NCBI GenBank assembly: GCA_026225275.1
Contig: JAMFSL010000107.1
Span: 1 to 54,967 of the forward strand
Source: Puia dinghuensis
GTDB taxonomy: Bacteria > Bacteroidota > Bacteroidia > Chitinophagales > Chitinophagaceae
Direction of reading: 5' to 3'
DNA length: 54,967 bases
In this document: in pieces, positions 8,736 through 54,967 of the stretch
How positions within the stretch are numbered: position 1 is the stretch's first letter
How the letters are laid out: every line of letters begins with the position of its first letter
Made by a program: the position numbers and the translations under genes
Notes under the pieces: model-generated
Told to the model about the DNA's origin: nothing
The model's input: only the letters and a program-made list of their open reading frames with translations
The model's database searches: none

Positions 8736-8739
8736 ATTT

Positions 8740-25528: not shown

Positions 25529-28500
25529 ATGGGACTTTCCAAAGCGATCAAAAAAAAGGCGGCTGCCCCGGGGAAAGCTACAGGCAATGGTCATGCCCTC
25601 AAAAATCCAACCTCCCGCAAAAAAGCAACCGGTAACGGTCATGCCAATGGCTCCAATGGTCACACCGCCAACGGCAATGGACATGGCAATGGCTCCAGCC
25701 GTCAGCGTGCCCAGCTGCATACTTACGAAGAAACTGACTTTTTGGATGACAAGGAAATGCTGAGTATCCTTTTGCAGGTCCGCAATGGTAATTTTACGGT
25801 CCGGATGCCCATCGGTGAGGTCGGGGTTAAAGGAAGGATCTTCGATACCTTAAATGAGATTATCTCCCTCAATGAGGAAATGATGCGGGAGTTTACCAAG
25901 GCCGGTAATACCATCGGCAAGCAGGGTAAGCTGACCCAGCGGATAGAAGCACCCAATGCCAAAGGGTCCTGGGCGACCGGGGTAGGTTCGTTGAACTCGC
26001 TGATCTCCGACCTGGTGCATCCCACCATCGAGATCGCCCATGTAATCAGTTCGGTGGCGAAAGGAAATCTTTCTCAGAACATGCCCCTCGAGATCGGCGG
26101 TCATGCTTTGCAGGGGGAATTTTCCAGAATCGCCCGTGAGGTGAATGACATGGTGAAACAGCTGAACCTTTTCTCGATGGAAGTGACGCGTGTGGCCCGT
26201 GAGGTGGGTTCCGAAGGAAAGTTAGGCGGCCAGGCCAAGGTGAAGGGGGTGGCCGGGGTGTGGAAGGATCTGACGGATTCGGTGAATCTGATGGCCGGTA
26301 ATCTGACGGCGCAGGTGCGAAACATTGCCGATGTGACGACCGCGGTGGCCAAGGGCGACTTGTCGAAAAAGATCACGGTGGACGTGAAAGGGGAAATCCT
26401 CGAATTAAAGAATACCATCAATACCATGGTGGATCAGCTGAACTCCTTCTCTTCCGAAGTGACCCGTGTGGCATTGGAAGTAGGTACGGAAGGAAAGCTG
26501 GGCGGTCAGGCGCACGTAAGGGGGGTGGCCGGTACCTGGAAGGATCTGACGGACTCCGTGAATGGGATGGCCAGCAACCTCACCGGCCAGGTGCGTAACA
26601 TCGCCGAAGTGACGACGGCGGTGGCCAAGGGTGACCTTTCCCGTAAGATCACCGTGGACGTAAAAGGAGAAATCCTGGAGTTGAAGAATACGATCAATAC
26701 GATGGTGGACCAGCTGAACTCGTTCAGTTCCGAAGTAACGCGCGTGGCGCGTGAAGTAGGGTCCGAAGGTAAATTAGGCGGTCAGGCCGATGTGCCTGGT
26801 GTCGGCGGTACCTGGAAGGATCTGACGGACTCGGTGAATATCATGGCCGGTAACCTGACGGCGCAGGTGCGTAATATCGCCGAAGTGACCACTGCCGTGG
26901 CAACGGGTGACCTTTCCCGTAAGATCGACGTGGCGGTGAGAGGGGAAATATTGGAGTTGAAGAATACGATCAATACGATGGTGGACCAGCTGAACTCGTT
27001 CAGCTCCGAAGTAACGCGCGTGGCGCGTGAAGTAGGGTCCGAAGGCAAATTGGGCGGCCAGGCTGCAGTGGAAGGGGTCGGTGGCGTATGGAAGGATCTG
27101 ACGGACTCGGTGAACGGGATGGCCAGTAACCTCACCGGCCAGGTGCGTAACATCGCCGAAGTAACGACGGCGGTTGCCAAGGGTGACCTTTCCCGTAAGA
27201 TCACCGTGGACGTAAAAGGGGAAATATTGGAATTGAAGAACACCATTAATACGATGGTGGACCAGCTGAACTCCTTCGGGTCGGAAGTGACCCGTGTGGC
27301 GCGTGAGGTGGGGTCCGAAGGTAAATTGGGCGGTCAGGCGGACGTGCCCGGGGTAGGGGGGACCTGGAAGGATCTTACCGACTCGGTGAATAAGATGGCC
27401 GGTAACCTGACGGCACAGGTGCGTAACATCGCCGAAGTAACGACAGCGGTGGCCAATGGCGACCTTTCCCGGAAGATCACCGTGGACGTGCAGGGAGAGA
27501 TCCTGGAATTGAAGAATACCATTAATACCATGGTGGACCAGCTGCGCGGTTTCGCCTCCGAAGTAACGCGTGTTGCCCGTGAGGTGGGTACGGAAGGTAA
27601 ATTAGGCGGGCAGGCCTTCGTGCCCGGTGTCGCCGGTACCTGGAAGGATCTGACGGATTCGGTGAACGGGATGGCCTCTAACCTGACCGGCCAGGTACGT
27701 AACATCGCTGAAGTGGCCATTGCCGTGGCTAACGGGGATATGTCCAAGAAGATCACGGTGGATGTACGCGGTGAGATCCTGCAGCTGAAAGAGACGCTGA
27801 ATACGATGGTGGATCAGCTCCGCGCCTTTGCCTCCGAAGTAACGCGTGTGGCGCGTGAGGTCGGTACCGATGGTAAGCTGGGTGGCCAGGCCTTCGTGCC
27901 CGGTGTCGCCGGAACCTGGAAGGATCTGACGGACTCCGTTAACTCCATGACGGGTAACCTGACGGCGCAGGTGCGGAATATCGCCGAAGTGACCAAGGCT
28001 GTGGCCAGCGGTGACCTGTCCAAGACAGTGGCTATCGACGTAAAGGGTGAGATCCTCGATCTGAAGAATACCATCAACACCATGGTGGAACAGCTGAACT
28101 CCTTCGCCTATGAGGTGACCCGTGTGGCGCGTGAAGTAGGTACGGAAGGTAAGCTGGGCGGCCAGGCCGAAGTAAGGGGTGTGGCCGGTACCTGGAAGGA
28201 TCTGACCGACTCCGTCAACATGATGGCCTCCAACCTGACCAACCAGGTGCGCGGTATCGCCAAGGTGGTGACGGCCGTGGCAACAGGTAATTTGAAACAA
28301 AAGCTGTCCATCGTCTCCCGTGGAGAAGTGGCGCAGCTGACCGATACCATTAATGAGATGATCGATACCCTGGCCCTCTTTGCCGACCAGGTGACGACAG
28401 TCGCCCGTGAAGTGGGCGTTGAAGGAAGACTCGGTGGTCAGGCCAGTGTGCCCGGCGCATCGGGTATCTGGAAGAACCTGACGGAAAATGTAAACCAGCT

Positions 28501-31474
28501 GGCGCAGAACCTGACGACGCAGGTACGGTCGATCTCGGAAGTCGCCTCCGCGGTAACCAAAGGTGACCTGACGCGTACGATCCGTGTGGAAGCCAAAGGT
28601 GAGGTAGAAGCCCTGAAGGATACGATCAACCAGATGATCGCCAACCTCAAGGAAACGACCCTCCGCAACCAGGAGCAGGACTGGCTGAAATCCAACCTGG
28701 CGAAGTTCACCCAGATGCTCCAGGGGCAAAAGGACCTCAACACGGTGACCCAGCGGATCCTGTCGGAACTGGCACAGGTGGTCACCGCCCACTATGGAGC
28801 CTTCTATATCCTCAAGCAGGATGAAGATACCCGCGAAGACAAATTAAGATTGTTCTCGGCCTACGGATATAAGACCGACAAGAATATTCCCACGGAATTC
28901 TCCATCGGCGAAGGCCTGGTAGGACAGGTAGCCTTTGAAAAGGAAAGGATCATCCTGTCGAATGTCCCGGGAAATTATATCAAAATAAGCAGTGGTCTCG
29001 GCAGGGCTAAACCGGCGAACCTCATCATCCTGCCGGTGTTGTTCGAGAACAAGGTCAAAGCCGTTATCGAACTGGCTTCGCTGGATATCTTCAGTGAGAC
29101 CCACCTGGACTTCCTTAGCCAGCTGATCGAGAGCGTCGGTATCGTGTTGAACACGATCGAGGCCAACAGCCGGACGGAAGAGCTGCTGACCCAGTCCCAA
29201 TCACTGGCAGGCGAGCTGAAGATCCAGCAGGAAGAGCTGCGCAGGACCAATGACGAGCTGCAGGATAAGGCGCTCCTGCTGGTCAAGCAAAAGAATGAAG
29301 TGGAAGCGAAGAATAAGGAAGTGGAAGAAGCCCGCCGGTCACTGGAAGAAAAGGCCGAGCAGCTGACCCTGACCTCCAAATACAAGTCGGAATTCCTGGC
29401 CAATATGTCCCATGAGTTGCGCACACCGCTCAACAGCCTGCTGATCCTTGCGCAGCAACTCTACGAAAATGCCGAAGGCAACCTGTCGGACAAGCAGATC
29501 CGTTACGCCAAGACCATCCACTCCTGCGGTGATGACCTCATCCAGCTGATCAATGACATCCTGGACCTTTCGAAGATCGAATCCGGCTTCATCTCGGCGA
29601 ATATCTCCCCGGTCAGGTTCAGCGAGATCGCTTCCTTCGTGGAAACAACCTTCAAGCCTATTTCGGAAGCACGTCATCTGCGCTTCACCATCGAGACGGA
29701 TCCACGGCTGCCACAAAATATGGAGACGGACTTGCAGCGCCTAAACCAGATCCTTAAGAATCTGTTGTCGAACTCCTTTAAATTCACGGAGAAAGGGGAG
29801 GTTAAGCTGAAGATCTACGAGGCCAGCCGTAACTGGAAGTCCGGTACGCCCAGTCTCGATACTGCCCGGCAGGTCGTCGGATTCGCGATCAGCGACACCG
29901 GCATCGGTATCCCCCAGGAAAAACAGAATATCATTTTTGAAGCGTTCCAGCAGGCGGAAGGCTCCACCAGCCGTAAATATGGTGGGACAGGTCTGGGCCT
30001 GTCCATCAGTCGCGGGCTGGCAGAGTTGCTGGGCGGCACGATTGAACTGGAGAGCAATCCCGGCCGCGGCAGCACCTTTACGCTGTTCGTGCCCGTAGAG
30101 AGCACCGGGCTGATCTCCAGGGAGGCGTCGGACAATATCAATGCCTACCAGCAACTGCAGCTCGGAGCCAGCAGCGGGGAGCTCGATACCCTGCTCAATT
30201 CCCTACGGGTGACCGGCGAGATGATGGACTCCCCCAAGATGCATATCGTCAGCGAAATGATCAATGATGCCGGCGATGACCGGTCGAATATCCAACAGGG
30301 CGAAAGGATCGTGCTGATAGTGGAAGACGACCTCCGTTTCGGCAAGATCATCATCGAAAAGGCGCATCAATATGACCTCAAGGCCGTCGTAGCCACGAAC
30401 TATATCGAAGTCTTCGATTTCGTCAATCGCTTCACGCCCATTGCGATCACCCTGGACGTCAAGTTACCGGATACCAGTGGCTGGAAAGTGCTGGATCTGC
30501 TCCGCAATGATCTGAACTACCGGCATATCCCCATCCACCTGATCTCGGGAGAAGAGAACAGGTCGCTGGCCCTCAAACGCGGCGCCCGCAGCTTCCTGCT
30601 GAAGCCCCTCGAGAATGAGGCGCTCAGCGAGCTCTTCGAAGATATCGTCTCTTTCCACGGAAAAGATGTCCGGAAGATCCTGGTCGTCGAGGACAATGAG
30701 ATCGAGTCATCGCAGATCAGCAAGATGCTGCAGGGCGATAATATGGATGTCACCATTGCGGCGACCGGCAAAATAGCGCTGCAGGAAAATGACATCAGGA
30801 ACTTCGACTGTATCATCCTGGATTATACGCTGCCCGACATTTCCGGTATCGACCTGGTCAGGGAAGTTAGTGAGAGTAAGAACAAGCTGACGCCGGTCAT
30901 CGTCTATTCGGCGAAGGATTTCGATAAGAAAGAGCTGAACCACCTCAACCGGACTTCCAATACGATATTGCTCAAAGGGGTGAACTCCCTCGAGCATCTG
31001 CTGGAAGAAACCGTGCTGCATCTGCATATCAATCACCGGGAACTTCCGCCTGAAAAACGAAGGGTGATCGAGAACATCCGGATGAAGGACGATATCCTTA
31101 CCGGGAAAAATGTGCTGGTCGTGGATGACGACGTGCGCAATCTTTTTGCCCTGACCACCGTTTTTGAGCGATATAATATCAATGTCGTCACGGCGGAGAG
31201 CGGTAAGGAAGCCATTCAGATCATCAATGACGACAAGCAGAAGGTGGATATGGTGCTGATGGATATCATGATGCCGGAAATGGACGGTTATGAAACCACG
31301 CAAAAGATCCGGCGTGAGCATAAAAACAATACCTTGCCGATCATTGCAGTGACTGCCAAGGCTATGAAAGGTGACCGACAGAAATGTATCGAGGCCGGTG
31401 CTTCCGATTATATCACAAAACCCCTTAAAATAGACCAATTGTTGTCCCTGATGCGCGTGTGGTTCTATAAATAA
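25529..31474 (+). CDS. Soluble poly-HAMP hybrid histidine kinase with GAF and three receivers
   Basis: This 1981-residue protein has no membrane helix. Order: a low-complexity Gly/Asn/His leader (about residues 15-57); an array of HAMP-type units (about 170-1040) with nine LGGQA repeats spaced exactly 92 residues apart in most copies and ten VAxGdLs-type motifs; a GAF domain (about 1085-1212); a coiled coil (1215-1280); HisKA with H1295 in [11 protein letters not shown]; HATPase with DTGIGIPQ and GGTGLGLSI; then receivers with phosphoacceptors D1643, D1765 and D1912. The HAMP array resembles fungal group III kinases (Nik1/Os-1), which sense osmotic and cell-wall stress with cytosolic poly-HAMP chains. 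Receivers 1 and 2 have less canonical flanks than receiver 3 ([10 protein letters not shown]). It begins a run of three kinase genes on this strand. Confidence 0.92.
26190..28650 (+). repeat. Tandem 276-bp coding repeats (HAMP units)
   Basis: Nine in-frame units recur with a 276-base period; the LGGQA-coding segment is found near 26221, 26497, 26773, 27049, 27325, 27601, 27877, 28153 and 28432. Central units are close to identical at the DNA level, with exchanges mainly at the variable residues after LGGQA. The last two units are more diverged. Such an array can gain or lose units by recombination and is prone to assembly collapse. Confidence 0.9.
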
Positions 31475-42093: not shown

Positions 42094-45000
42094 ATGAAAG
42101 ACCTTTCCACTATACAGGAAGCGATTTGGCTGACTCAAAATATCTATACGGATTCGTCGCTCTATAATGTAGGGGGCTATGCCCTAATAGAGGGAGAGTT
42201 GAATGAACCGGCCTTGATCGCATCGATTGAAGAGGTATTGGCTGATGCCGATGCCATTGAAACGGGATATTACGCGTTTAATGATAAGCCGCTGGATGAA
42301 AATCATCGTTTTGTTAAATGTGATATATCCTCCGTTGATTTTTCTCTTTCGGAAATTCCGGACCAATCTTGCCGGGAATGGATAGATCTGGATATCAGGG
42401 AAAAACTAAATGCCGGGAAAAGCCTTCTCAAAGTGAGGATTCTTAAAGCTGGTGAGCATAGGCATTATTGGTACACCAAGGTTCATCACCTCGTTTTTGA
42501 CGGTTATGCCATGTCCTTGTTTTTCAATTCTGTAGCCGAGGTTTATTCGGCACATATAAATAATAAAAACAGGGATTCGAAGCGTAACCTGCACGCTTAC
42601 TCTGATTTTATTGAAGAAGAAAAGGAATACAGGCGTTCAAAAGGATTCAGCGATGATCGGGATTTTTGGTTCGGAAGGCTATCCGGATTGACCGGGGTAA
42701 AGGGTTTTCAATCTTGTTTTCAGTCGGCAACGGCGTTATCGCTGTCTTCCTCACGACAGGAGATCGTTATATCAAGAGATTTTTATGATAGAATAAAGCG
42801 TTTATGTGACACCTATGGTTGCTCTGTCTTTCATTATTTTCTTTCATCCATTTTTGTGTTAAACAAATGCTATAATAATGAGATGCCGGCGATAGGGATT
42901 CCGGTCTTCAACAGGAGGAGCAAAAATTTTAAAAATACATTGGGAGCCTTCGTTAATGTATTGCCCTTTACCTTATCGCTGCAGGAAAATCAGACATTTT
43001 CCAAATTACTGATTAGCGTGAAGGATGAACTTAAAGCATGTTATAAACATCAGCGGTTTCCCTCCTATTGCATTACGGAAGAGTTGAATCGGGAAGGCAC
43101 TTTTTATAACCTCCTTTTTTCCTACCAGAAAAACGACTATACGGCTCATTTGGGAGATTCTTGTGTCGCTATTAACTATATCCATAGCGGAGAGCAGCAG
43201 GAAGACATTGCATTTCATTTACTGGAGTATTCAGAAGACGCCGATTTGAAACTGGTGGTTGATTATAGAAAAGAGTTGTTCCACGAAAAGATGGTGGAAG
43301 GAATACTTCGGTCATTTAGTTATTTATTGCATTTATTTCTCGAAAGTCCAAATTTGCCGGTGCAGACGGTGAAAATCCTAAGTGAAGAGGAGTCTCATCG
43401 GATCCTTACGGCTTTCAATGATACAAAAGCGGATTTTAGCAGGGAAAAGACACTGCTGGATTTATTTGAGGATCAGGTTGCTAAAACTCCGGACCGAATA
43501 GCCGTTGTGATGAAGGAAAAGACGAGCTTGACATACAAACAGCTTGATGAAAGGAGTGCCCGGTTAGGTCACTATCTGCGCATCCATTATCTGATAGGAC
43601 CCAATGACATCGTAGCGGTAAAATTGTATCCCGGAGATTTGATGATCATCGCTATACTGGGCATTCTAAAGGCCGGAGCTGCCTATTTGCCGGTCGACCC
43701 GGATTATCCCGAGGAAAGAGTGGCTTATATATTATCAGATAGCGGTTGTAAAGTTATATTGGATGGCGCGGAAATGGAAAGGTTTGCAAAGATCGGGCAT
43801 TCCCCGGGCCCGGAAAGCCACCGTCCAACCAATAAATCAACAGATCTGGCTTATGTAATTTACACTTCCGGTTCCACCGGACGACCTAAGGGGTGCATGC
43901 TGGAGCACCGGGGAATAATCAACCGGTTGGAATGGATGTGGCGGCAATTCGAATTTGATGCGGACGACGTCATTCTGCAAAAAACGACTTTTACTTTCGA
44001 TGTATCGGTTTGGGAAATTTTCCTGCCTCTGTGCATGGGCGCGAAGATGGTTCTGTGTCAAAAAGAAGATGCCCGTTCTCCCGAAAGAATCCTGGACCTT
44101 ATCAAGGAATATAAGATCACTTGTCTTCATTTTGTTCCCGGTATGTTTGCCGCATTCGTCCGGACTTTGACTGATGATGATACTCATCTCCCGTTACTAA
44201 AAAGCTTAAGAAGAATAATCGCCAGCGGGGAGGAGCTACTCGCGGAGACGGTAAAAAGCTGGTACGACATAATGGATATACCTGTCCACAACCTTTATGG
44301 GCCGACCGAAGCTTCTATTGATGTCACTTATTATACAACATCATGGAAGGACACAAGGATCCCCATCGGCCGGCCGATATGGAATATGCGGATGTATATT
44401 ACAGATAAATATGGTCATCTGCTGCCCATTGGGGTGGAAGGAGAGATATGTATAGCCGGGATAGGGTTGTCGAAAGGATACCTGAACAGGCCGGAGTTGA
44501 CTGCACAGAAGTTTGTTGAGGATCCGTTTTTTCCGGGCGAACGCATGTACCGGACCGGGGATCTGGGGCGATGGATGGCGGATGGCAACATCGAATTCCT
44601 TGGCAGAATGGACACCCAGGTAAAAATCCGGGGCTATCGCATAGAGTTGGGGGAAATAGAAAGCATTTTGCAGGAACATCCTGCCATCGATGCGGCTGTA
44701 ATCCTCGCCCCTGAGCGAAGAGAAAGCGGAAAAGAACTAGCCGCCTATATAATAAGTAAGGTGCCGGTTGTTTCCGGCGAATTGCGGGCGTACCTGGCGA
44801 CAATTTTGCCGGATTATATGGTGCCGTCCCGCTATATCAGGGTCGAGATATTCCCTATGACGTCCAGCGGCAAAATTGACCGGAAAAAACTGCTGGATAC
44901 CGCGGGAACCCTCCTTTCTGATGAGATAGCTTACGTATCTCCAAAAGACGAAATCGAAGAAGGGCTTATTCTGATCTGGCAGGATATATTAGGCAAAGAG

Positions 45001-48000
45001 CGTATCGGTATAAAGGACAATTTTTTTATTTCCGGCGGTCACAGTTTAAAAGCCATGCGTCTGACCGGCCGGATACATAAGGAGTTTGATGTTAAATTGA
45101 CGATCAACGAGCTATTCTCTGCACCCATTCTTGAAATGCAGGCGCAATTGATCAGGCAGGCGAAAAGGACTATTTATTCCCGTATTGTTCCCGTCGGAAA
45201 TCAACCTCATTATCCCTTGTCTTCCGGACAGCGGCGTTTGTGGGTCCTGAGCCAGTTGACGGGAGGAAACCGGGCTTATAACATGGCGGGAGTTCATGTC
45301 TTCGAAGGAAATCTCAACCTCGCAGCATTGGAAAAATCCTTCAACATGTTGCTCAGAAGGCATCAAAGTCTGAGGACCGTGTTCAAGGAAGATGAACAAG
45401 GGAATATCAGGCAGTACATAAATCCACCGGACCATGTAAGATTCAGCATATCGACCCGGAGCGTGACAAAGGAAAGTGACATCGATCGCCTTCTATTGGA
45501 AGCCTGCGAACGACCTTTCAATCTTGATTCCGGTCCATTGCTCCATGCCGAACTGTATCCTTTATCCGCAACACGATCGATATTCGTGTACGTGATGCAT
45601 CATATCCTCGGAGATGGATGGTCGATGGACATATTGACTAAAGAGCTGTCAATCTATTATAATGCCTGTTGCAAAAATACGGTAGACATGCTGCACCCCC
45701 TGGCAATCCAATACAAGGACTACGCGGCATGGCAACAGGATCAACTGCTTCAGGGGAAACTTTTGCAGCATAAAGCATATTGGTTGCAGCAATTGCAGGG
45801 AGAATTGCCAGCCCTCGTTCTGCCCGGCGCCAATAAAAGGCCGGTTATAAGGACCTATGCCGGAGGAACAATCAGAAAGACCCTGGATGCTGGTTTAACC
45901 AGAAAGTTAAAATCCCTGGTACAATCGCAGGGCGCAACTTTGTTTATGGGCGTGGTCTCGCTGGTTTATACTTTACTGCACAGGTATAGCAGCCAGGAAG
46001 ATATTGTCATAGGTATTCCTGTCGCAGGAAGAGAACACCCGGATTTACAGGATCAGATCGGACTTTACGTGAATACCCTTGCGTTAAGGATACAGTTTAA
46101 AGGAGATGATACTTTTGACAAATTATTATCTACGATCAAAAATATGGTTCTGGAAGGCTATGAGCACCAGGCCTATCCATTTGACGAATTGGTGAATGAT
46201 CTGCAACTGCAATGGGATATGAGCAGAAATGCCCTGTTCGACGTAATGGTCATATTTCAAAACGCAGAGGGTATGTCGGTAAATAAATTGGAATGGAATG
46301 ACCTTCACGTGTCCCCATACGAAGGTCTGATCAGTACGGTCAGTAAATTAGACCTTACTTTCAATTTTGAGGAGGCAGGGGAAAATCTGCTCCTGCAAAT
46401 CGAATATAATTCCGTCCTTTATGATAAGGTCTATGCGGATCAGATGGCCCGTCACTTACTGCAAATTCTCCGGTGTGTCGTCGAACAACCTTTTCTACCG
46501 ATCAGGCAATTGAACTTTTTGGAACAGCCGGAACAGCGGCAGCTGCTGGTTGCATTTAATCAGACGGAAACAGAATATGTAAAAGATCGGGTGATCACGG
46601 ATTTGTTTGAACTGCAGGTTGTCAAAACACCCGATGATATCGCAGTGATCTTCGAAAATGATAGGCTGACCTACGCGCAGCTGAATGAAAGCGCAAATCA
46701 ATTCGCCAATTATTTACGTCGAGATCTTGAATGCCGCAGGGGTGACCTCGTTGGACTCAAAGTGAGCCGGAATGAGTGGATGGTCATAGCGATGCTAGGC
46801 ATACTGAAGGCTGGCGGAGCCTATGTTCCGATTGATCCTGAATATCCCCTCGAAAGACGTAATTATATATTGGAAAATAGTAAATGCCGGATTTTAATCG
46901 ATGATGAAGAATTGGATAAATTCAAAAAGAGACAGGCAGCATACGATATTCACAATCCGGAATTTGTGGCTGACCAGGACGACCTGGCCTACATTATTTA
47001 TACATCCGGTTCCACCGGCCAGCCAAAAGGAATAATGATAGAGCATAGAAATGCGGTTGCATTTATTAACTGGTGCGGTAACGAATTTTTGACATCCGAC
47101 TTTGAAGTCGTCCTGGCTTCAACTTCTATTTGTTTTGATTTATCAATTTTCGAGATATTTTATACACTCAGCACAGGAAAAAAGCTGAGAGTCCTTAAAA
47201 ATGGATTGTCCATTCCACAATATATCGCTATTGATAAAAAGATACTGATCAATGCGGTGCCTTCAGTGATAGGGTTTTTACTCGATGAAAAGCCGGATCT
47301 CGGCTCTGTCAGCGTATTGAATATGGCAGGCGAACAGATTCCCGGCAAATATCTCTTAAAGCTCGATTGTCGGAGAATGGAAATAAGGAATCTGTATGGG
47401 CCTTCCGAAACGACCACTTACAGCACTGCTTACAGGATCGGCGATGCGCCCGAAATACTGATCGGCAAGCCTATACACAATACTTATATATACATTCTGA
47501 ACGAGGCCATGATTTTACAACCGATAGGTGTGACGGGGGAAATTTGTATAGGAGGAGACGGTGTAGCCAGAGGTTACCTGGATAATCCGGAACTGACAAG
47601 AGAGAAGTTCATTGCCGATCCGTTCAGGAAAGGAAAACGCATATACAAGACAGGCGATCTTGGCAGGTGGCTACCGGACGGCAATATCGAGATGGCCGGC
47701 AGAAAAGATCATCAAATAAAGATCAGGGGATACCGGATCGAACCTGACGAGATAGAAAGCGCTTTGCAACGGCATAAAGATATAGATTCCGCGCTGGTGC
47801 TGGCAAAATGGAAAGATGAGGAAAAACGCCTTGTGGCTTATTTTGTTAGCCGAACGCTTGTAAAAGCACCGGAAATCCGGGATTACCTGAGTGGCCTGTT
47901 ACCGGTCCATATGGTGCCTGATTATTTAGTTCAATTAGAGTCCTGGCCCCTGAACCTAAATGGTAAAATCGCCAGAGAAAAATTGCCGGATCCGGAAGAT

Positions 48001-48312
48001 ACGGTTTTGATCGGTTGTAGTGATTATGTGGCGCCGCGAAATGCTATAGAAGAAAAACTGGTGCTGATCTGGCAGGAAATATTGGGAGCGCAAACCATCG
48101 GCATTAAAGATAATTTCTTCACCCTTGGAGGACACAGCATGAAGGCCGCTAAATTGGTCTCGGAAATAAACCATGAATTCAAGGTCCGGCTTAATTTGGA
48201 AAGTATATTTACGGATCCCAGGATCGAAAATATCGCCGATCGGATTTCTTTTATCCTGGAGCAGCACAAACAGAAAAAAAACAAGGCAAACCTCATCGAA
48301 ATAGAAATATAA
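42094..48312 (+). CDS. Nonribosomal peptide synthetase, two modules (C-A-T-C-A-T), predicted Ser-Ala
   Basis: The ATG at 42094 is used; a TTG six codons earlier is less likely. The 2072-residue protein has C1 (residues 1-430, HHLVFDG at 131-137; its opening QEAIWLTQN resembles the EntF-type starter C domain), A1 (about 450-935), T1 (Ser984 in GGHSLKAM), C2 (about 1035-1460, HHILGDG at 1169-1175), A2 (about 1500-1965), T2 (Ser2015 in GGHSMKAA) and a charged tail ending NLIEIEI. Binding-pocket residues by alignment to GrsA PheA: A1 D-V-W-H-I-S-L-I-D (Asp is D636), the serine code; A2 D-L-F-N-N-A-L-T-Y (Asp is D1682), an alanine code. No epimerase, methylase or thioesterase is present. The next NRPS starts 9 bases after the stop. 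Confidence 0.93.
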   Translation: MKDLSTIQEAIWLTQNIYTDSSLYNVGGYALIEGELNEPALIASIEEVLADADAIETGYYAFNDKPLDENHRFVKCDISSVDFSLSEIPDQSCREWIDLDIREKLNAGKSLLKVRILKAGEHRHYWYTKVHHLVFDGYAMSLFFNSVAEVYSAHINNKNRDSKRNLHAYSDFIEEEKEYRRSKGFSDDRDFWFGRLSGLTGVKGFQSCFQSATALSLSSSRQEIVISRDFYDRIKRLCDTYGCSVFHYFLSSIFVLNKCYNNEMPAIGIPVFNRRSKNFKNTLGAFVNVLPFTLSLQENQTFSKLLISVKDELKACYKHQRFPSYCITEELNREGTFYNLLFSYQKNDYTAHLGDSCVAINYIHSGEQQEDIAFHLLEYSEDADLKLVVDYRKELFHEKMVEGILRSFSYLLHLFLESPNLPVQTVKILSEEESHRILTAFNDTKADFSREKTLLDLFEDQVAKTPDRIAVVMKEKTSLTYKQLDERSARLGHYLRIHYLIGPNDIVAVKLYPGDLMIIAILGILKAGAAYLPVDPDYPEERVAYILSDSGCKVILDGAEMERFAKIGHSPGPESHRPTNKSTDLAYVIYTSGSTGRPKGCMLEHRGIINRLEWMWRQFEFDADDVILQKTTFTFDVSVWEIFLPLCMGAKMVLCQKEDARSPERILDLIKEYKITCLHFVPGMFAAFVRTLTDDDTHLPLLKSLRRIIASGEELLAETVKSWYDIMDIPVHNLYGPTEASIDVTYYTTSWKDTRIPIGRPIWNMRMYITDKYGHLLPIGVEGEICIAGIGLSKGYLNRPELTAQKFVEDPFFPGERMYRTGDLGRWMADGNIEFLGRMDTQVKIRGYRIELGEIESILQEHPAIDAAVILAPERRESGKELAAYIISKVPVVSGELRAYLATILPDYMVPSRYIRVEIFPMTSSGKIDRKKLLDTAGTLLSDEIAYVSPKDEIEEGLILIWQDILGKERIGIKDNFFISGGHSLKAMRLTGRIHKEFDVKLTINELFSAPILEMQAQLIRQAKRTIYSRIVPVGNQPHYPLSSGQRRLWVLSQLTGGNRAYNMAGVHVFEGNLNLAALEKSFNMLLRRHQSLRTVFKEDEQGNIRQYINPPDHVRFSISTRSVTKESDIDRLLLEACERPFNLDSGPLLHAELYPLSATRSIFVYVMHHILGDGWSMDILTKELSIYYNACCKNTVDMLHPLAIQYKDYAAWQQDQLLQGKLLQHKAYWLQQLQGELPALVLPGANKRPVIRTYAGGTIRKTLDAGLTRKLKSLVQSQGATLFMGVVSLVYTLLHRYSSQEDIVIGIPVAGREHPDLQDQIGLYVNTLALRIQFKGDDTFDKLLSTIKNMVLEGYEHQAYPFDELVNDLQLQWDMSRNALFDVMVIFQNAEGMSVNKLEWNDLHVSPYEGLISTVSKLDLTFNFEEAGENLLLQIEYNSVLYDKVYADQMARHLLQILRCVVEQPFLPIRQLNFLEQPEQRQLLVAFNQTETEYVKDRVITDLFELQVVKTPDDIAVIFENDRLTYAQLNESANQFANYLRRDLECRRGDLVGLKVSRNEWMVIAMLGILKAGGAYVPIDPEYPLERRNYILENSKCRILIDDEELDKFKKRQAAYDIHNPEFVADQDDLAYIIYTSGSTGQPKGIMIEHRNAVAFINWCGNEFLTSDFEVVLASTSICFDLSIFEIFYTLSTGKKLRVLKNGLSIPQYIAIDKKILINAVPSVIGFLLDEKPDLGSVSVLNMAGEQIPGKYLLKLDCRRMEIRNLYGPSETTTYSTAYRIGDAPEILIGKPIHNTYIYILNEAMILQPIGVTGEICIGGDGVARGYLDNPELTREKFIADPFRKGKRIYKTGDLGRWLPDGNIEMAGRKDHQIKIRGYRIEPDEIESALQRHKDIDSALVLAKWKDEEKRLVAYFVSRTLVKAPEIRDYLSGLLPVHMVPDYLVQLESWPLNLNGKIAREKLPDPEDTVLIGCSDYVAPRNAIEEKLVLIWQEILGAQTIGIKDNFFTLGGHSMKAAKLVSEINHEFKVRLNLESIFTDPRIENIADRISFILEQHKQKKNKANLIEIEI

Positions 48313-48321
48313 TAGGGGTCC

Positions 48322-51300
48322 ATGAAAAATCTATTGAAGGAAATCAGCGATAATAAAATCTTTTTGGAAATCATTGACGGCAAGCTCAAAATATTTGCCG
48401 AGCAGGCGCATGTTAATCCAAAACTGATTGCCGAAATAAGGGAGAAAAAGAGTGAACTGATCACATTTTTGACTCAAAACGATCAGAAGTCTGCCGATTT
48501 TGCTTTCGTGGGAAATATTCCGACTGCCCCCGTCCTCCCATATTATCGCTTGTCCTCGGCCCAACGTAGGATGTGGATACTAAGTCAGTCGGCTGAAGGG
48601 AGCATAGCGTATAACATTTCCGGAATCTATATAGTCGAAGGGAATTTAAACTGCCCGGCTCTGGAGAAATCCTTTACCGACGTGATTGAACGACATGAAA
48701 TCTTAAGGACCTTGTTTAAGGAAGATGAGTTCGGTGAAATCCGGCAATTTGTCATTCCCTGTGAAGACACGTCATTTAGCATCGAACAGCATGATTTAAG
48801 GCAGGAGAGAGAATGGGAGAAAAAATTGGAGGCATGCCTTGAGAATGAAACGAACAAATCCTTCGATCTCCGGTCACGTAAGCTGCTAAGAGCTGTTTTG
48901 TTCCGGGTGAGAGACGATAGATGGTTTTTTATCTGCACGATGCATCATATCGTCAGCGATGCATGGTCCATGCAGGTTCTCATAAGGGAATTGCTGATCC
49001 TGTACAGGACCCATGATAGACAGGAGGCAAATCCGCTGATCCCCATACGTATCCAATATAAGGATTATGCTTGCTGGCAACAGGAACAGGTGGATAATGG
49101 CAGCCTTAGTGCAGACAAGGCTTACTGGATGAAACAACTGGATGGGGAGCTCCCCGTGCTCGAACTCCCCGAAGACAGACCGCGCCCGGCCATAAAGAGC
49201 TATAATGGGGGAGTAATATATAAAACCATTTCGGCTGAGCTCGCTACCGGAATAAGAATGCTTTGCCAGGAAGAGGCAGCGACATTGTTTATGGGTTTAC
49301 TGGCGGTTGTTAAAGCGCTGTTCTACCGGTATACCGGCCAGGAAGATATGATAATCGGCAGCCCGATAGCGGGCAGGATCCATGCCGATCTGGAAGACCA
49401 GATAGGCTTTTATGTTAACACGCTGGCTATAAGAACCCGGTTTAATGGCAGCCGGTCTTTTACTGACTTACTGAAGACCGTTAAAAACACCATCCTGGAA
49501 GCCTATGAACACCAGGCATATCCCTATGACAAGCTGGTGGAAGATTTGAAGCTGGTGAAAAACAGGGCCCGAAATCCCTTGTTTGACGTAATGGTGGCCC
49601 TGGATCATTCAGGAACAGGCATCGGGCAGGAACAGCAAAAACCGGATGGCCTGACCTTCGAAAAATATGAAAAAAAGGTCGCGGCGGGTAGCAGCAAATT
49701 TGATATTGTTTTTAATTTTTCAGAGTATAAGGACGAAATAAAAGCCCGGATTGAGTACAATAGCGATATCTATTTTACGGAATCCATAGAACGTTTGGCC
49801 GATCATTTCATACAATTTTTGGAGGCTATCATTACCAACCCCTCTATGGCTGTTCAGGAACTGGAATATATCAGCACCGCGGAACGGCATAGAATCCTCT
49901 TTGAATTTAACACTCCCCGGGTCCATTCTCAGGAGTTTCGGACGGTGCTCGAGCTGTTCGAACGGCAGGCCGTCGAAACACCGGAGAGCATCGCATTGGT
50001 ATTCAATGATTTGACTTTCACTTATCGGCAACTCAACCAAGAGGCGAGCCGATTCAGCAGGTTTCTGATCGAAAAATATGCTATAAAAGGAAACTGCTTA
50101 ATAGGCATTTTGCTTGAACGAAGCGAATGGCAGGTCATTGCTGTCCTGGCGGCATTGAAAACGGGAGCGGCTTATGTGCCTATCGATCCCGCGTACCCTT
50201 CGGATCGTATCAGCTACATGATAGAAGACAGCGGATGTATAACAGTCATTGACACGGAAATGTTGGCCGCTTTTAACATGGTGAGAAATGACTACCAGCC
50301 GGATGCGTTTGCAACGGTTCCTCGCAGCGAAGACCTGGCATATGTCATCTATACATCCGGATCTGCGGGGTTGCCTAAAGGTGTCATGATCGAACACCGG
50401 AACTTAATGAATTTGTGTCATTGGCACATCACTCATTTCTCCGTTACGCGGGAAGACCATGCCACCTTATACGCAGGCGTGGGGTTTGATGCATCTGTCT
50501 GGGAACTTTTTCCCTACCTTATAACGGGGGCCTCACTCTATATTGTATCCGAAAAAATTCGACTCAATGGCCCGGAATTGGCATCCTTTTACGGGAAGAA
50601 TAAAATAACGATCAGTTTTCTTCCCACTCAAATGGGCGAACAGTTGATGGAGATGCCTGTTGGTTCATTGCGCTATTTATTAGTAGGGGGCGACAAGCTA
50701 AACTCGTTTGTAAAAAGAGAATATGCAATCATCAATAATTACGGCCCTACGGAAAATACCGTGGTGGCAACAAGCTATCATGTGAATGCCGGTTCTTCGA
50801 ATATTCCGATCGGCAAACCGATATTCAATACGCAAATATATATACTGGACGAGCGGCACAGATTACGCCCGGAAGGAGTAATAGGTGAAATATGTATTGG
50901 AGGAGCCGGTCTGGCCAGAGGTTATTTACGCAAGCCCGAACTGACGGCTGAAAAATTCATCCCGAACCCCTTCATGGAAGGGACGCGGTTATATAAGTCC
51001 GGTGACCTGGGCCGATGGCAGTCGGATGGGAGCATTCAATTTATTGGCAGGAAGGATGACCAGGTTAAGATAAGAGGTTACCGTATAGAATTGGGAGAAA
51101 TAGAAAATGTACTGCAAAAACATCCTGAGATACGCGAGTCTGTTGTAATAGCCAGATCGAACCGGATCGGCGAAAAAGAATTAGTGGCATATATCTCGGG
51201 GAAGAATGGGGAGGCATTGAACGTCTCGGGGATTCGTGCACATTTGCGCAGGACCTTGCCGTCCTACATGCTTCCTGTTTATTACGTTCAGTTGAAATCC

Positions 51301-54300
51301 TTACCGGTAACTCCGAATGGGAAAGTGGACAGAAAAGGCCTTCCTGATCCGGAAGAGGTAGGTCTATCCGCTGATGAGGAGTATGTTCCACCCCGGAATG
51401 AAATGGAGAGAAAAATGGTATTGGTATGGCAGAAAATCCTTGGTAAACAACAGATTGGAGTAACGGAGAATTTCTTTGATCTGGGTGGTCATAGTCTGAA
51501 CGCTACCCGACTGGTGAGCTTGATAAATAAGGAATTCGATGCGCGTATAACAATAAGCGAGCTTTTTTCCGCTCCCATCCCGGAAGAGTTGGCACGGCTG
51601 ATAAGTGGCGCCGGTAAAGGTTCCTGGGCGGATATTGTACCGGCCGATCCGCAGCCGGATTATCCTCTTTCCTCTGCCCAACGCAGATTATGGATCGGGG
51701 CCCAGGTTGAAGAGGCAAGCCGGGCCTATAATGTGCCCGGAATATACCGCTTGGAAGGGGAATTGGATGTCCCGGCTCTTATTTACAGTTTCGATAGATT
51801 GATTGCCCGGCATGAAATCCTGCGGACTGTTTTCAGGGAGGATCAGCAGGGGGATATCCGCCAGCACATACATGCTCCGGAAGCGTCATCTTTCAGGATG
51901 GTCTATCTGGATCTAAGACCGGTAAGTGAAAGGCAGGAAAACAACCTGGCATCGCTGATACGGCAAGACCTGGACCAGTCTTTTGATCTGAGCATAGGTC
52001 CCCTGATGCGGGCCAGTCTTTACCAACTGGCGGACCATCAATGGGTATTGGTCTATGTCATGCATCATATCATCAGCGATGGCTGGTCCATGGGCATTCT
52101 AATCTCTGAATTACTGGCATTGTATCAATCCCGCATCAACGGAGTTTCCGATCCTCTGGCGCCCCTTCACATTCAATATAAGGATTACTCGGTCTGGCAG
52201 CAGGAACAATTGCAAGGAGAGATCTTGAAGGCGCATAAAAATTATTGGGCTAAACAATTTGAAGGAGAATTGCCGCAGCTGAACCTGCCGGAAGATAAAA
52301 GCCGGCCGGCTATAAAGACCTATAACGGAGAAAGGATATGCACGACAATAGACGAATTAGCGACAAGACGACTCAAAATACTTGTCCGGGAAGAAGAGAG
52401 TACCTTATTCATGGGACTTGTCGCCATTGTTAACGCACTGCTGTACCGTTATACGGGAATGGAGGATATCATTCTTGGTACACCCCTTGCCGGGCGGGGC
52501 CATATCGGCCTGGAAGGTCAATTGGGGTTCTTCATTAATACGGTGGCCTTAAGGACAAGGTTTAATGGAGGATATAGTTATCGTGAATTGCTGAAGCAGG
52601 TCCGCGAAGTAGCCATGGCGGCATATGAGCACCAGGATTTTCCATTTGACGAACTGGTAGCTGAATTATCGCATCACCGGGATATCAGCCGGCATCCGCT
52701 GTTCGATGTCCTGGTCGTATTACAGAACAATGGTCATTCCGGTGCCGAAGGTCTGCATGGGGGAGTAAATGTATGCAAATATGAAGAATCTGAAAATCCG
52801 GTTAGTAAATTCGACTTAACCTTTTCCTTTTTCGAAGCAGAAGATGAATTGCGGTTACAAATCGAATACAATACCGATATCTTTCATAAGGATACTATCG
52901 GACGATTAAGCACACATTTCAAACAATTATTGCAGTCGGGCATAGAGCAGCCGTCCCTGCCCATCCGGCAATTGAACTATCTGGAAGAAAAGGAAAAACA
53001 GCAGCTGCTAACGGAATTCAATCACAACGTGACTGACTATCCTGAAGATAAGACGCTGATACAGGTGTGGGATGAACGGGTCTCCAAAAACCCTGATAAT
53101 ATCGCCCTCGTTTTCGATGAAACGAAATTGAGTTATAAGGAATTGGACGAATTGTCAGATCAGTTGGGAGGTTATCTGCGGAATACCTTTGATATACAGC
53201 GGGAGGATATAATAGGTATAAAGCTGGATCGCAGCGAATGGTTGGTCATAAGCATACTCGGAGCGCTAAAATCGGGAGGCGCATATGTCCCCATTGATCC
53301 GGGTTCTCCTGACGCCCGCATCGACCAGATCCTGACGGATTGCCGTTGTAAGGTCATCTTGGATGTAACAGAGCTGGAAAGATTCCGGAAACGGGAAAGC
53401 AACTATAATGGCGGCGATCTGAAGAGGATCAACAAACCTAATGACCTGGCCTATGTCATTTTTACTTCGGGGTCGACAGGACGTCCTAAAGCGGTACTGA
53501 TTGAACACACGTCGCTGATCAATTACCTTTTTGCAATCGGCGCGGAATATGACTTAGACCCGTCAGATCGCATTTTGCAACTGGCCAATTTCACATTTGA
53601 TGCCTCCATCGAGCAGATTTTCCTACCCCTTTTAGCCGGCGCATCTTTATATCTCATTAGAAACACTCTAGTCGCGGATGCGACTGAATTGAATGATTTT
53701 ATCGATAAGTCAAAAATCACTCATTTGCATGCCGTACCTGCATTGCTGCGACAAATTGATTTGACCAGAGGAGATTCATTGAAAAGGATTGTGTCGGCAG
53801 GAGATATCTGCCCTCCCGATCTGTTTAAAAAAGTCAGGCACGGAGTCGCTCTCTATAATAAATATGGACCGTCCGAGGCAACTATTTCTTCTACGCTATT
53901 CAGAATAGATGGTAATATTACGGCTTACCCACTCATTCCTATCGGCCGTCCCATCAGTAACTATTTAATATATATCCTTGATGCCCGCGAGCAATTATTG
54001 CCGGTAGGAGTGGTCGGAGAAATTTGCATAGGAGGCGCCGGACTGGCCCGGGGTTATCTCAACGATCCGGAATTGACTGCCGGAAAATTCATATCCAATC
54101 CCTTCAGGGAAGGAACCCGGTTATATAAGACCGGCGACCTGGGTAAATGGCTTTCTGATGGAAATATTGAATTTGCCGGCAGATACGACGAACAAGTCAA
54201 AATACGGGGCTATCGCATAGAGCCGGCGGAAATTGAAACCATTCTCCTGGGACATCAGGATATCGATGCTGCGGCCGTAATGGCCAGAGAGATTATCGGC

Positions 54301-54967
54301 ACGGACAAAGAATTGGTCGCGTATCTGGTTAGCGGCAAGAAACTAAATATACCGGATATAAAGGCACACCTGAGCAAGGCGTTACCTTCTTACATGTTGC
54401 CTTCACAATATGTGCAAATAAAGGAATTGCCTTTGACCAGCAGCGGTAAAATAGACAAAAAGAAATTGCCGGCTATGGATGGAACAGATCTGTCCGGTGA
54501 TAGAGAATATATCGGTCCCCGAAACGAAGTTGAAAGGAAATTGATATCGTTATGGCAGGAAATAACGGGGAAAGAAAAAATAGCGATAACGGATGATTTT
54601 TTCGACCTCGGCGGCCATAGTTTAAAGGCCACCCGGCTGGCCAGCCGGATCAGCAGGGAATTCAATGTGAAAATAGCGTTGAAGGTCCTCTTTGCACGGA
54701 CCGTATTGGCAGAACAGGCACAATGGATAATACAAGCCCGAAAGACATCATTCTCCAATATATCTCCTGCTGCTGTTCAGGAGGATTATCCGTTGTCATC
54801 GTCGCAGCGTCGTTTATGGGTGCTGAGCCAGCTGGGGGAAGGCAATATGGCCTACAACATGCCGGGAGTATACCGTTTGGAAGGGATGCTGGATGCAGCT
54901 GTTCTGGAGCGGGCCTTTGGGGCGCTGCTGCTGCGTCATGAGATCCTGCGGACGGTCTTCAGGGAGA
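48322..54967 (+). CDS. Nonribosomal peptide synthetase with TubC-type docking domain (3' end outside window), predicted Leu-X
   Basis: The frame is open from the ATG at 48322 to the window end (2215 codons) without a stop. Residues 1-52 (LLKEISDNKIFLEIIDGKLK, then EIREKKSELITFL) form a TubC-like beta-hairpin docking domain. Then follow C3 (about 70-500, HHIVSDA at 208-214, Gly replaced by Ala), A3 (about 540-1005), T3 (Ser1058), C4 (about 1110-1545, HHIISDG at 1248-1254), A4 (about 1575-2050), T4 (Ser2100) and the start of C5. Pocket residues: A3 D-A-W-F-L-G-N-V-V (Asp is D723), a classical leucine code; A4 D-A-E-H-V-A-K-I-S (Asp is D1760), not matched to a known residue. A further module or more must lie beyond the window. 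Confidence 0.93.
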   Translation, partial: MKNLLKEISDNKIFLEIIDGKLKIFAEQAHVNPKLIAEIREKKSELITFLTQNDQKSADFAFVGNIPTAPVLPYYRLSSAQRRMWILSQSAEGSIAYNISGIYIVEGNLNCPALEKSFTDVIERHEILRTLFKEDEFGEIRQFVIPCEDTSFSIEQHDLRQEREWEKKLEACLENETNKSFDLRSRKLLRAVLFRVRDDRWFFICTMHHIVSDAWSMQVLIRELLILYRTHDRQEANPLIPIRIQYKDYACWQQEQVDNGSLSADKAYWMKQLDGELPVLELPEDRPRPAIKSYNGGVIYKTISAELATGIRMLCQEEAATLFMGLLAVVKALFYRYTGQEDMIIGSPIAGRIHADLEDQIGFYVNTLAIRTRFNGSRSFTDLLKTVKNTILEAYEHQAYPYDKLVEDLKLVKNRARNPLFDVMVALDHSGTGIGQEQQKPDGLTFEKYEKKVAAGSSKFDIVFNFSEYKDEIKARIEYNSDIYFTESIERLADHFIQFLEAIITNPSMAVQELEYISTAERHRILFEFNTPRVHSQEFRTVLELFERQAVETPESIALVFNDLTFTYRQLNQEASRFSRFLIEKYAIKGNCLIGILLERSEWQVIAVLAALKTGAAYVPIDPAYPSDRISYMIEDSGCITVIDTEMLAAFNMVRNDYQPDAFATVPRSEDLAYVIYTSGSAGLPKGVMIEHRNLMNLCHWHITHFSVTREDHATLYAGVGFDASVWELFPYLITGASLYIVSEKIRLNGPELASFYGKNKITISFLPTQMGEQLMEMPVGSLRYLLVGGDKLNSFVKREYAIINNYGPTENTVVATSYHVNAGSSNIPIGKPIFNTQIYILDERHRLRPEGVIGEICIGGAGLARGYLRKPELTAEKFIPNPFMEGTRLYKSGDLGRWQSDGSIQFIGRKDDQVKIRGYRIELGEIENVLQKHPEIRESVVIARSNRIGEKELVAYISGKNGEALNVSGIRAHLRRTLPSYMLPVYYVQLKSLPVTPNGKVDRKGLPDPEEVGLSADEEYVPPRNEMERKMVLVWQKILGKQQIGVTENFFDLGGHSLNATRLVSLINKEFDARITISELFSAPIPEELARLISGAGKGSWADIVPADPQPDYPLSSAQRRLWIGAQVEEASRAYNVPGIYRLEGELDVPALIYSFDRLIARHEILRTVFREDQQGDIRQHIHAPEASSFRMVYLDLRPVSERQENNLASLIRQDLDQSFDLSIGPLMRASLYQLADHQWVLVYVMHHIISDGWSMGILISELLALYQSRINGVSDPLAPLHIQYKDYSVWQQEQLQGEILKAHKNYWAKQFEGELPQLNLPEDKSRPAIKTYNGERICTTIDELATRRLKILVREEESTLFMGLVAIVNALLYRYTGMEDIILGTPLAGRGHIGLEGQLGFFINTVALRTRFNGGYSYRELLKQVREVAMAAYEHQDFPFDELVAELSHHRDISRHPLFDVLVVLQNNGHSGAEGLHGGVNVCKYEESENPVSKFDLTFSFFEAEDELRLQIEYNTDIFHKDTIGRLSTHFKQLLQSGIEQPSLPIRQLNYLEEKEKQQLLTEFNHNVTDYPEDKTLIQVWDERVSKNPDNIALVFDETKLSYKELDELSDQLGGYLRNTFDIQREDIIGIKLDRSEWLVISILGALKSGGAYVPIDPGSPDARIDQILTDCRCKVILDVTELERFRKRESNYNGGDLKRINKPNDLAYVIFTSGSTGRPKAVLIEHTSLINYLFAIGAEYDLDPSDRILQLANFTFDASIEQIFLPLLAGASLYLIRNTLVADATELNDFIDKSKITHLHAVPALLRQIDLTRGDSLKRIVSAGDICPPDLFKKVRHGVALYNKYGPSEATISSTLFRIDGNITAYPLIPIGRPISNYLIYILDAREQLLPVGVVGEICIGGAGLARGYLNDPELTAGKFISNPFREGTRLYKTGDLGKWLSDGNIEFAGRYDEQVKIRGYRIEPAEIETILLGHQDIDAAAVMAREIIGTDKELVAYLVSGKKLNIPDIKAHLSKALPSYMLPSQYVQIKELPLTSSGKIDKKKLPAMDGTDLSGDREYIGPRNEVERKLISLWQEITGKEKIAITDDFFDLGGHSLKATRLASRISREFNVKIALKVLFARTVLAEQAQWIIQARKTSFSNISPAAVQEDYPLSSSQRRLWVLSQLGEGNMAYNMPGVYRLEGMLDAAVLERAFGALLLRHEILRTVFRE

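Follow-up and report, generated by a model that had tools for sequence, protein, structure and literature searches.

The stretch analysed here (the window) comprises 54,967 bases of Puia dinghuensis (Chitinophagaceae; assembly GCA_026225275.1) and is the whole of contig JAMFSL010000107.1, referred to below as C200, so that there is no right-hand flank on the same contig. Between positions 42094 and 54967 it carries two collinear nonribosomal peptide synthetase (NRPS) genes, N1 and N2, which encode four complete modules of condensation (C), adenylation (A) and thiolation (T) domains, followed by a fifth C domain cut off after profile position 63 (Table 1). An earlier sequence-only reading had described these four modules and the beginning of a fifth, and the open reading frames (ORFs) and Pfam domains were present where it had placed them. 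Condensation and adenylation profile scores were in the hundreds of bits, which rules out chance as an explanation. N2 begins with a docking domain, and the carrier serines are encoded at nt 45043, 48136, 51493 and 54619. Neither N1 nor N2 contains a methyltransferase family detectable with Pfam, or an epimerisation (E) domain as judged by motif check and domain layout.

C domains of at least 380 residues, 255 in all, were collected from C200, a second contig of the same genome (C230) and 21 further stretches of contigs, and a rapid tree was built with 96 rows, of which 93 differ; part of them are a random sample and three are cyanobacterial. The first C domain of N1 fell in a set of seven rows (six different) that open clusters, together with one opening a protein inside a cluster region, with a support of 100 in the Shimodaira-Hasegawa-like approximate likelihood ratio test (SH-aLRT). 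Its starter label is read from the cluster position of these neighbours, the tree containing no labelled reference C domains. The line is therefore predicted to be a lipo-initiated NRPS.

The earlier description of a two-gene line holds for C200, where both genes are collinear, but not as the full extent of the system, since the line very probably continues on C230 to a total of 11 A domains and a polyketide synthase (PKS) module. A genome-wide search with the Pfam Condensation profile (E ≤ 0.001) yielded 14 matches, five on C200 and nine on C230, and none on any other contig. The facing contig ends are complementary: C200 stops after profile positions 1-63 of C5 and C230 opens with positions 304-455, in the same orientation and with both proteins open, leaving a gap of approximately 240 residues if nothing else was lost between them. 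The genes from window position 40539 and those of C230 to about 44.6 kb form a low-G+C island (0.37-0.475), compared with 0.516 for window positions 1-40110 and 0.509 for C230 positions 45,920-60,000. The complementary partial domain, the lack of condensation matches on other contigs and the common island make it likely that C200 and C230 form one locus across an unsequenced join. A long internal repeat is not supported as the reason for the break: leaving self-matches aside, the contig ends have as their longest strong match one of 76% identity over 99 bases, a longer one reaching 63% over 485.

If joined, the line consists of 11 adenylation modules and one ketosynthase-acyltransferase-ketoreductase (KS-AT-KR) module running in one direction. 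Intergenic distances among the C230 line genes, all on a single strand, range from -41 to +41 nt, and the stretch from the UpxY gene to the acylase gene measures 52,071 bases, the gap not being counted. The only E domain follows A8, and the next C domain falls in the tree branch of post-E C domains. Motifs of the PKS module are intact, namely DTACST of the KS domain, GHSIG and HAFH of the AT domain (the latter presumably typical of malonyl), the NADPH and Tyr motifs of the KR domain and that of the carrier. With C, A and T domains recurring in the same sequence and core motifs intact save for the loss of HHxxxDG at the start of N5, the genes are predicted to encode a multimodular type I NRPS-PKS line.

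Table 1. Genes and domains of the assembly line and its surroundings on C200 (the window) and C230.
Feature	Contig	Position	Strand	Evidence or remark
LuxR-type response regulator	C200	40539..41231	+	Pfam; G+C 0.424, matches island (0.516 for window 1-40110); operon membership uncertain
UpxY-family NusG paralog (processive antiterminator family)	C200	41550..42056	+	first operon gene, 37 nt before N1; Pfam NusG
NRPS N1, C(starter)-A1-T-C2-A2-T	C200	42094..48312	+	ORF (2072 amino acids from ATG); Pfam 2 Condensation, 2 AMP-binding, 2 PP-binding
C1, starter-type, HHLVFDG	C200	42103..43404	+	Pfam profile, motif, C-domain tree
A1 core, DVWHISLID, predicted Ser	C200	43465..44484	+	GrsA alignment; nearest PDB entry EntF
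C2, LCL-like, HHILGDG	C200	45202..46548	+	profile and motif
A2 core, DLFNNALTY, predicted Ala	C200	46606..47580	+	GrsA alignment; PDB match McyA
NRPS N2, TubC_N-C3-A3-T-C4-A4-T-C5(start)	C200	48322..54966	+	cut at contig end; Pfam 3 Condensation, 2 AMP-binding, 2 PP-binding, TubC_N
C3, HHIVSDA	C200	48544..49896	+	profile and motif
A3 core, DAWFLGNVV, predicted Leu	C200	49957..50928	+	GrsA alignment; reference code
C4, HHIISDG	C200	51655..53010	+	profile and motif
A4 core, DAEHVAKIS	C200	53071..54060	+	GrsA alignment; residue left unassigned
C5 start, profile 1-63 of 456	C200	54775..54963	+	profile 304-455 at start of C230
NRPS N3, rest of C5-A5(DSHSITLVV)-T	C230			
PhyH gene	C230			after N3
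NRPS N4, C-A6(DAFWLGGTF, predicted Val)-T-C	C230			
TauD gene	C230			after N4
NRPS N5, HH-less C-like domain-A7(DLTKIGEVG, predicted Asn)-T-C-A8(DGENVGSID)-T-E-C-A9(DAACIAAIC, predicted aromatic)-T	C230			
PKS, KS-AT-KR-T	C230			between N5 and N7
NRPS N7, C-A10(DLTKIGEVG, predicted Asn)-T-C-A11(DASTIAAIC, predicted Tyr/Phe-like)-T-terminal C	C230			
CmlA, ABC exporter, thioesterase, acylase	C230			in that order after N7

Pocket codes were read from a MAFFT alignment against a GrsA segment that matches residues 232-333 of 1amu at 100%. The four codes given for A1-A4 in the sequence-only reading were reproduced letter for letter. Its assignment of Ser, Ala and Leu to A1-A3 remains the best reading, with added support for the first two. 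The nearest PDB entry to the A1 segment is EntF, a known Ser synthetase. McyA is the sole PDB match of the A2 segment at E ≤ 1e-8 and agrees with it at six of the nine pocket positions, those inside the compared stretch, which supports the likeness to McyA given for the Ala code in the sequence-only reading. The residue names for A3, A6, A7, A9, A10 and A11 are predicted from reference codes.

A comparison of code with product is afforded by the chitinopeptin-type cluster of Chitinophaga oryziterrae, which has 15 modules. In the available part of PMC9248904, chitinopeptin A has 14 residues with N-methyl-Val first, Thr at place 2, Lys at 8, diaminopropionate (Dap) at 9, D-Leu at 10, L-Leu at 13 and beta-hydroxy-Ile at 14; other chitinopeptins start with an additional Dap, and no product of the C. 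oryziterrae cluster was isolated. Shifted by this Dap, the C. oryziterrae codes fit at Dap 1 (DIWELTADD), Val 2 (DAIWMGGTF), Thr 3 (DFWNIGMVH), Lys 9 (DAEDIGEIV, with E), Dap 10, Leu 11 (DAWFLGNVV, with E) and Ile 15 (DAFFLGITF). L-Leu would be expected at place 14, which has the Asp-type code DLTKIGHIG; DAWFLGNVV occurs at place 13. Collinearity is good but not complete. The A3 code is thus found at the place of D-Leu-10, consistent with Leu, although it is also found once at a place that seems to be taken by a different residue in chitinopeptin A. The A4 code recurs unchanged in a C. dinghuensis cluster and as DAEHIAKIS in C. tropicalis, and its Glu at pocket position 239 suggests a basic residue; Lys was considered by way of DAEDIGEIV, but as the two codes agree at just four of nine positions A4 was left without a residue. 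The Asp-type code with its HIG ending differs from those of A7 and A10, whose EVG ending we take to denote Asn.

The first gene of the operon scores 122.6 bits against the UpxY-family model NF033644 (cut-off 100), and its product is predicted to act in antitermination. The genome contains one other match to the model, below the cut-off, taken as the housekeeping NusG. A survey of 12 genomes, picked for their NRPS relatives and hence biased, gave 39 above-cut-off matches in 11 genomes. When these were placed in a tree with two NusG rows, the window gene fell in a clade of 13 (support 100/99), 11 of which stand before same-strand NRPS genes; none of the genes in a clade of 19 is NRPS-linked. Over the whole tree 15 of 39 genes are NRPS-linked and the label needs five changes, a number as low being reached in 0 of 500 shuffles (mean 12.4). 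Of these 15, four do not belong to the clade of the window gene, including that of C. tropicalis and one with the NRPS gene on the other strand. With the genes of two chitinopeptin-type clusters added, 13 of the 15 clade members are NRPS-linked (99/99).

As a less biased check, the window protein was searched in 394 genomes of the family, giving 29 matches spread over 23 genomes; 21 of the matches, its own included, showed at least 44% identity. The 13 kb downstream was examined for 14 of these 21, the other six besides its own lying at coordinates already covered. Same-strand NRPS or PKS genes follow within about 10 kb in 11 cases and a contractile-injection sheath gene in seven (three of the seven by Pfam, all by phmmer). 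The remainder comprise a polysaccharide-type locus (by eye), a locus of no clear class (G001:C4) and one (G326) where an acylase gene is next and thioesterase and CmlA genes lie on the other strand. A strict link of the clade to NRPS genes is ruled out by the seven sheath loci. Among the weaker matches, six of eight of which were examined, none precedes an NRPS gene, one precedes a sheath gene and two are ended by contig ends. Homologues directly before a phage-tail-like sheath gene were observed at loci L195, L218, L224 and L226-L230, and also at L231. Since L195 also holds Pvc16 and eCIS_core genes by Pfam, such loci are extracellular contractile injection operons. Both associations are positional, and a regulatory role is predicted from them.

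LoaP, TaA and RfaH resemble the window gene as NusG paralogs in or before long biosynthetic operons. According to the available portions of PMC12691694 and PMC7593976, TaA and LoaP serve polyketide antibiotics and the UpxY family of Bacteroidota is described for capsule operons. The window gene differs in being of the UpxY family and in having an NRPS link drawn from the gene neighbourhoods described here. No literature linking UpxY with nonribosomal peptides was found ("nonribosomal" occurred just in one reference title), which does not prove the link unpublished, and a literature search returned no paper combining contractile injection system, NusG and Bacteroid.

At its other end the line closes with a C domain rather than a fused thioesterase. 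C domains were labelled terminal where they lie at the C-terminal end of the final protein of an assembly line and have the terminal domain of N7 as best BLAST match among the eight types of the present line. Eleven such domains, that of N7 and ten others, form one branch with a long stem (SH-aLRT 100), and 17 other protein-end C domains fall elsewhere. The branch marks a distinct type but is not an independent test, because similarity helped to select its members. HHxxxDG is kept in all 11. A profile built from them outscored the general profile in 11 of 80 CmlA loci, always 25 residues or fewer from the protein end; ten of these are the training members and one (L052) is independent, bringing the number of terminal-type domains to 12. 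None was found in the other 69 loci within the stretches covered. The domain would release the chain; alternatively, it might recruit the neighbouring CmlA protein or modify the last residue, and C domains of the "modified AA" type next to a CmlA-type protein are described in the cryopeptin paper (PMC12181424, available part). Many of the papers listed by a literature search on terminal condensation domains concern fungi, and this search does not prove the N7 type unpublished. The 12 natural examples constitute a test set for chain release without a fused thioesterase.

N5 begins with a C-like domain devoid of HHxxxDG; on the other side of TauD, the preceding protein closes with a C domain that carries HHAISDG. 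The HH-less domain groups with post-TauD domains of the metagenome-assembled genome (MAG) SZAS-47 and of genome G017 and with three Nostoc domains (SH-aLRT 98; the G017 row is a long branch). Its best PDB match is weak (4tx2, 32 bits), which we take to be the teicoplanin X domain. A siderophore-type interface domain is reportedly (Reitz 2019) an HH-less C-like domain beside a TauD-type hydroxylase; the N5 domain, which lacks HH and adjoins TauD, is a candidate for one. Recruitment of TauD by the domain is plausible. In the clusters analysed, six TauD genes lie inside assembly lines. An HH-less domain comes next in the present line, the SZAS-47 MAG and G017; in Niastella, P. alluvionis and CF118 the C domain that follows has the HH motif. 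A seventh TauD gene, that of C. fulva, is located beyond its line. The idea of an obligate TauD partner is weakened by this even division. A search of 294 family genomes (E ≤ 1e-12) found the domain in the present genome only, SZAS-47, a carrier, having been missed by draw or cut-off. Two of 14 tree rows labelled as lacking HH are of the N5 type and the rest fall among ordinary C domains, so that loss of the motif alone is not diagnostic. Three Nostoc plasmids carry related HH-less N-terminal NRPS domains, the order in N. carneum being a C protein, an ORF with a methyltransferase-like motif (by eye) and the HH-less domain with an A domain. In the joined C. tropicalis stretch, a separate HH-less condensation-like ORF (7760-9193) separates the first NRPS gene from the UpxY gene. 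The word "interface" is not present in the available part of PMC12971057.

Catalytic motifs are kept in CmlA (HNHQDH), TauD (HSE ... H..R), PhyH (HQD), the thioesterase (GHSMG) and the acylase (GSN). A CmlA_N score of 302.6 bits and the HxHxDH motif identify the first as a predicted CmlA-type diiron beta-hydroxylase. PhyH may act on a free amino acid, as the structures nearest to it are named phytanoyl-CoA dioxygenase, leucine hydroxylase and EctD. The exporter is PvdE-like (TIGR01194, 327.8 bits against a cut-off of 286.2). The acylase, with 619.3 bits to PF01804 and Ser282 of its GSN motif aligned to the first residue of penicillin-acylase beta chains, is a predicted member of the penicillin-acylase (Ntn hydrolase) family. 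Twelve of the 80 CmlA loci have an acylase match. After the acylase gene lies one for a 131-residue protein, membrane-like by eye (C230:38682-39077), with a homologue directly 3' of the acylase in nine of the 12 loci. None was found in the remaining three (two on the opposite strand, all three with lower acylase scores) or in the 68 loci without acylase. No acylase was found in the stretches examined of two chitinopeptin-type clusters, and no paper joining Bacteroidetes, NRPS and penicillin acylase was found in the literature search.

The gene set of C200 and C230, roughly 50 kb, very probably makes a peptide natural product that is as yet uncharacterised. The best reading of that product is a fatty-acid-primed Ser-Ala-Leu-X-X-Val-Asn-D-X-aromatic-[reduced C2 unit]-Asn-aromatic chain, exported and probably trimmed of its fatty acid. 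We hold with some confidence that a single 11-module NRPS-PKS line spans the low-G+C island on both contigs, its first four modules in the window, and works as follows. The UpxY-type antiterminator from the first gene would let RNA polymerase read the operon of ~52 kb. The starter C domain would put a fatty acid on Ser, and successive modules would add Ala, Leu, X4, X5, Val, Asn, D-X8 and an aromatic residue, after which the KS-AT-KR module would add and reduce one malonyl unit to give a statine-like beta-hydroxy-gamma-amino acid. Next would come Asn and another aromatic residue, PhyH, TauD and CmlA would hydroxylate some residues, and the terminal condensation domain would release the chain. 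The PvdE-like ABC protein would then export the peptide and the penicillin-acylase-type enzyme remove the fatty acid.

Several points weigh against this scheme. The join is unsequenced, and beyond the ~240 residues missing from C5 whole modules could be missing too. Three of the 11 codes (A4, A5 and A8) have no residue, and most of the other residues are predictions from reference codes. The discrete thioesterase could release the chain instead of the terminal domain, and the acylase scores 64.9 bits against the PvdQ equivalog NF051460 (cut-off 950) and lies closer to D-succinylase and penicillin G acylases, so that it may act on another substrate. A CmlA-type protein need not leave a hydroxyl, the authors on Pedobacter cryopeptin suggesting a step to dehydrovaline (PMC12181424, available part). 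Domain order, codes, intact motifs and gene order are read directly from the sequence; the contig join, the substrates, the residue targeted by each oxygenase, release by the terminal domain, deacylation and antitermination are inferred.

The unsequenced join, with no same-order relative found to bridge it, would also allow C200 and C230 to be two separate NRPS clusters that seem continuous since both end in a C domain. This is improbable given the complementary partial domain, the common orientation and island, the confinement of condensation matches to these contigs and the single set of tailoring genes. It is slightly less improbable, though still unlikely, that the product is a siderophore with a beta-hydroxylated residue, made along the lines of pyoverdine by means of PvdE- and PvdQ-type proteins. 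The exporter, the acylase and the TauD gene adjoining an HH-less C-like domain would suit such a product; no TonB receptor was among the flanking genes examined (not every gene was), the code of A7 and A10 is one for Asn rather than Asp, and none of the three PDB matches of TauD is named as an Asp hydroxylase. Pyoverdine maturation resembles the present system in pairing an exporter of the cyclic-peptide family with an Ntn-hydrolase-type acylase beside an NRPS, and differs from it in the low PvdQ score of the acylase and the lack of a receptor among the flanking genes examined.

There is likewise little to suggest that the line is a chitinopeptin-family variant making an acylated, iron-binding cyclic lipodepsipeptide. 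The family (C. eiseniae and C. flava, with related clusters in C. oryziterrae and C. niastensis) shares with the present line a giant Chitinophagaceae NRPS, a CmlA-type gene and a UpxY-clade gene, and the C. oryziterrae and C. niastensis clusters begin with a starter C domain or a PKS start. As analysed here, however, these have 15 and 16 modules, other residues and no terminal C domain of the present type, whereas the present line has another module order and number, an internal KS-AT-KR module, Asn-type instead of Asp-type codes and an acylase; the code of the Dap place, DIWELTADD, is absent from its 11 codes. Membership proper is ruled out on module order, module number (14-16) and the codes at the Dap and Asp places. 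In the available part of PMC9248904, CmlA-based beta-hydroxylation is proposed for chitinopeptins and the products keep their lipid.

A single NRPS-PKS line thus remains the preferred reading, and its module order was found in none of the clusters analysed. N2 matched 17 of 33 genomes of the genus, its own included (E ≤ 1e-100), with a highest identity elsewhere of 49% over 426 residues. N1 matched seven of 294 family genomes including its own (E ≤ 1e-300), the best other match, 53% over residues 1-1594, being at the coordinates of the C. tropicalis cluster (NZ_WRXN01000013.1). That cluster has a starter C domain 52% identical to C1 followed by a Ser-type module, a UpxY gene in front, the DAEHIAKIS code, a KR-type PKS module, a terminal C domain of the N7 type and an ABC-thioesterase-acylase-CmlA cassette. 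It differs in having many more modules in another order (codes starting Ser-X-Ser-Pro-Ala), a second PKS module and a UpxY gene outside the clade of the window gene. McyA, alike in the Ala pocket letters of A2 at the six positions compared, presumably has a methyltransferase in its Ser module and an E domain in its Ala module. As N1 and N2 have neither, and the present line has a lipid starter domain and unrelated downstream modules, a microcystin-like system is ruled out. No paper on a Chitinophaga nonribosomal peptide with statine was found in the literature search.

Assembly lines of Bacteroidota are numerous and mostly without known products, and the present one is of an ordinary kind; the regulatory clade and the terminal domain, both little-noticed groups, merit specialist attention most. 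We advance tentatively that Chitinophagaceae rely on a dedicated UpxY clade for transcription of their longest non-capsule operons (NRPS and extracellular contractile injection), and that some NRPS lines of Bacteroidota have exchanged the C-terminal thioesterase for a distinct terminal condensation domain with intact HHxxxDG that releases, and perhaps cyclises, the peptide. The line offers a testable peptide prediction, predicted unmasking by an acylase and a single regulator gene whose loss should silence the 52-kb operon. If the clade does serve NRPS and injection operons, deletion or overexpression of one small gene would provide a general handle on silent clusters of the family.

Low-G+C genes continue 3' of the acylase (C230:39305-45379) and encode a family-9 glycosyltransferase, a MacB/FtsX permease, a putative mannosyltransferase and a DUF4254 protein, with possible roles in glycosylation, export or self-protection; homologues of several recur beside some related clusters. 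Elsewhere in the window, positions 25529-31474 encode a hybrid histidine kinase of 1981 residues with nine or ten HAMP repeats, a GAF domain and three receiver domains (Pfam), followed by further kinase and regulator genes.

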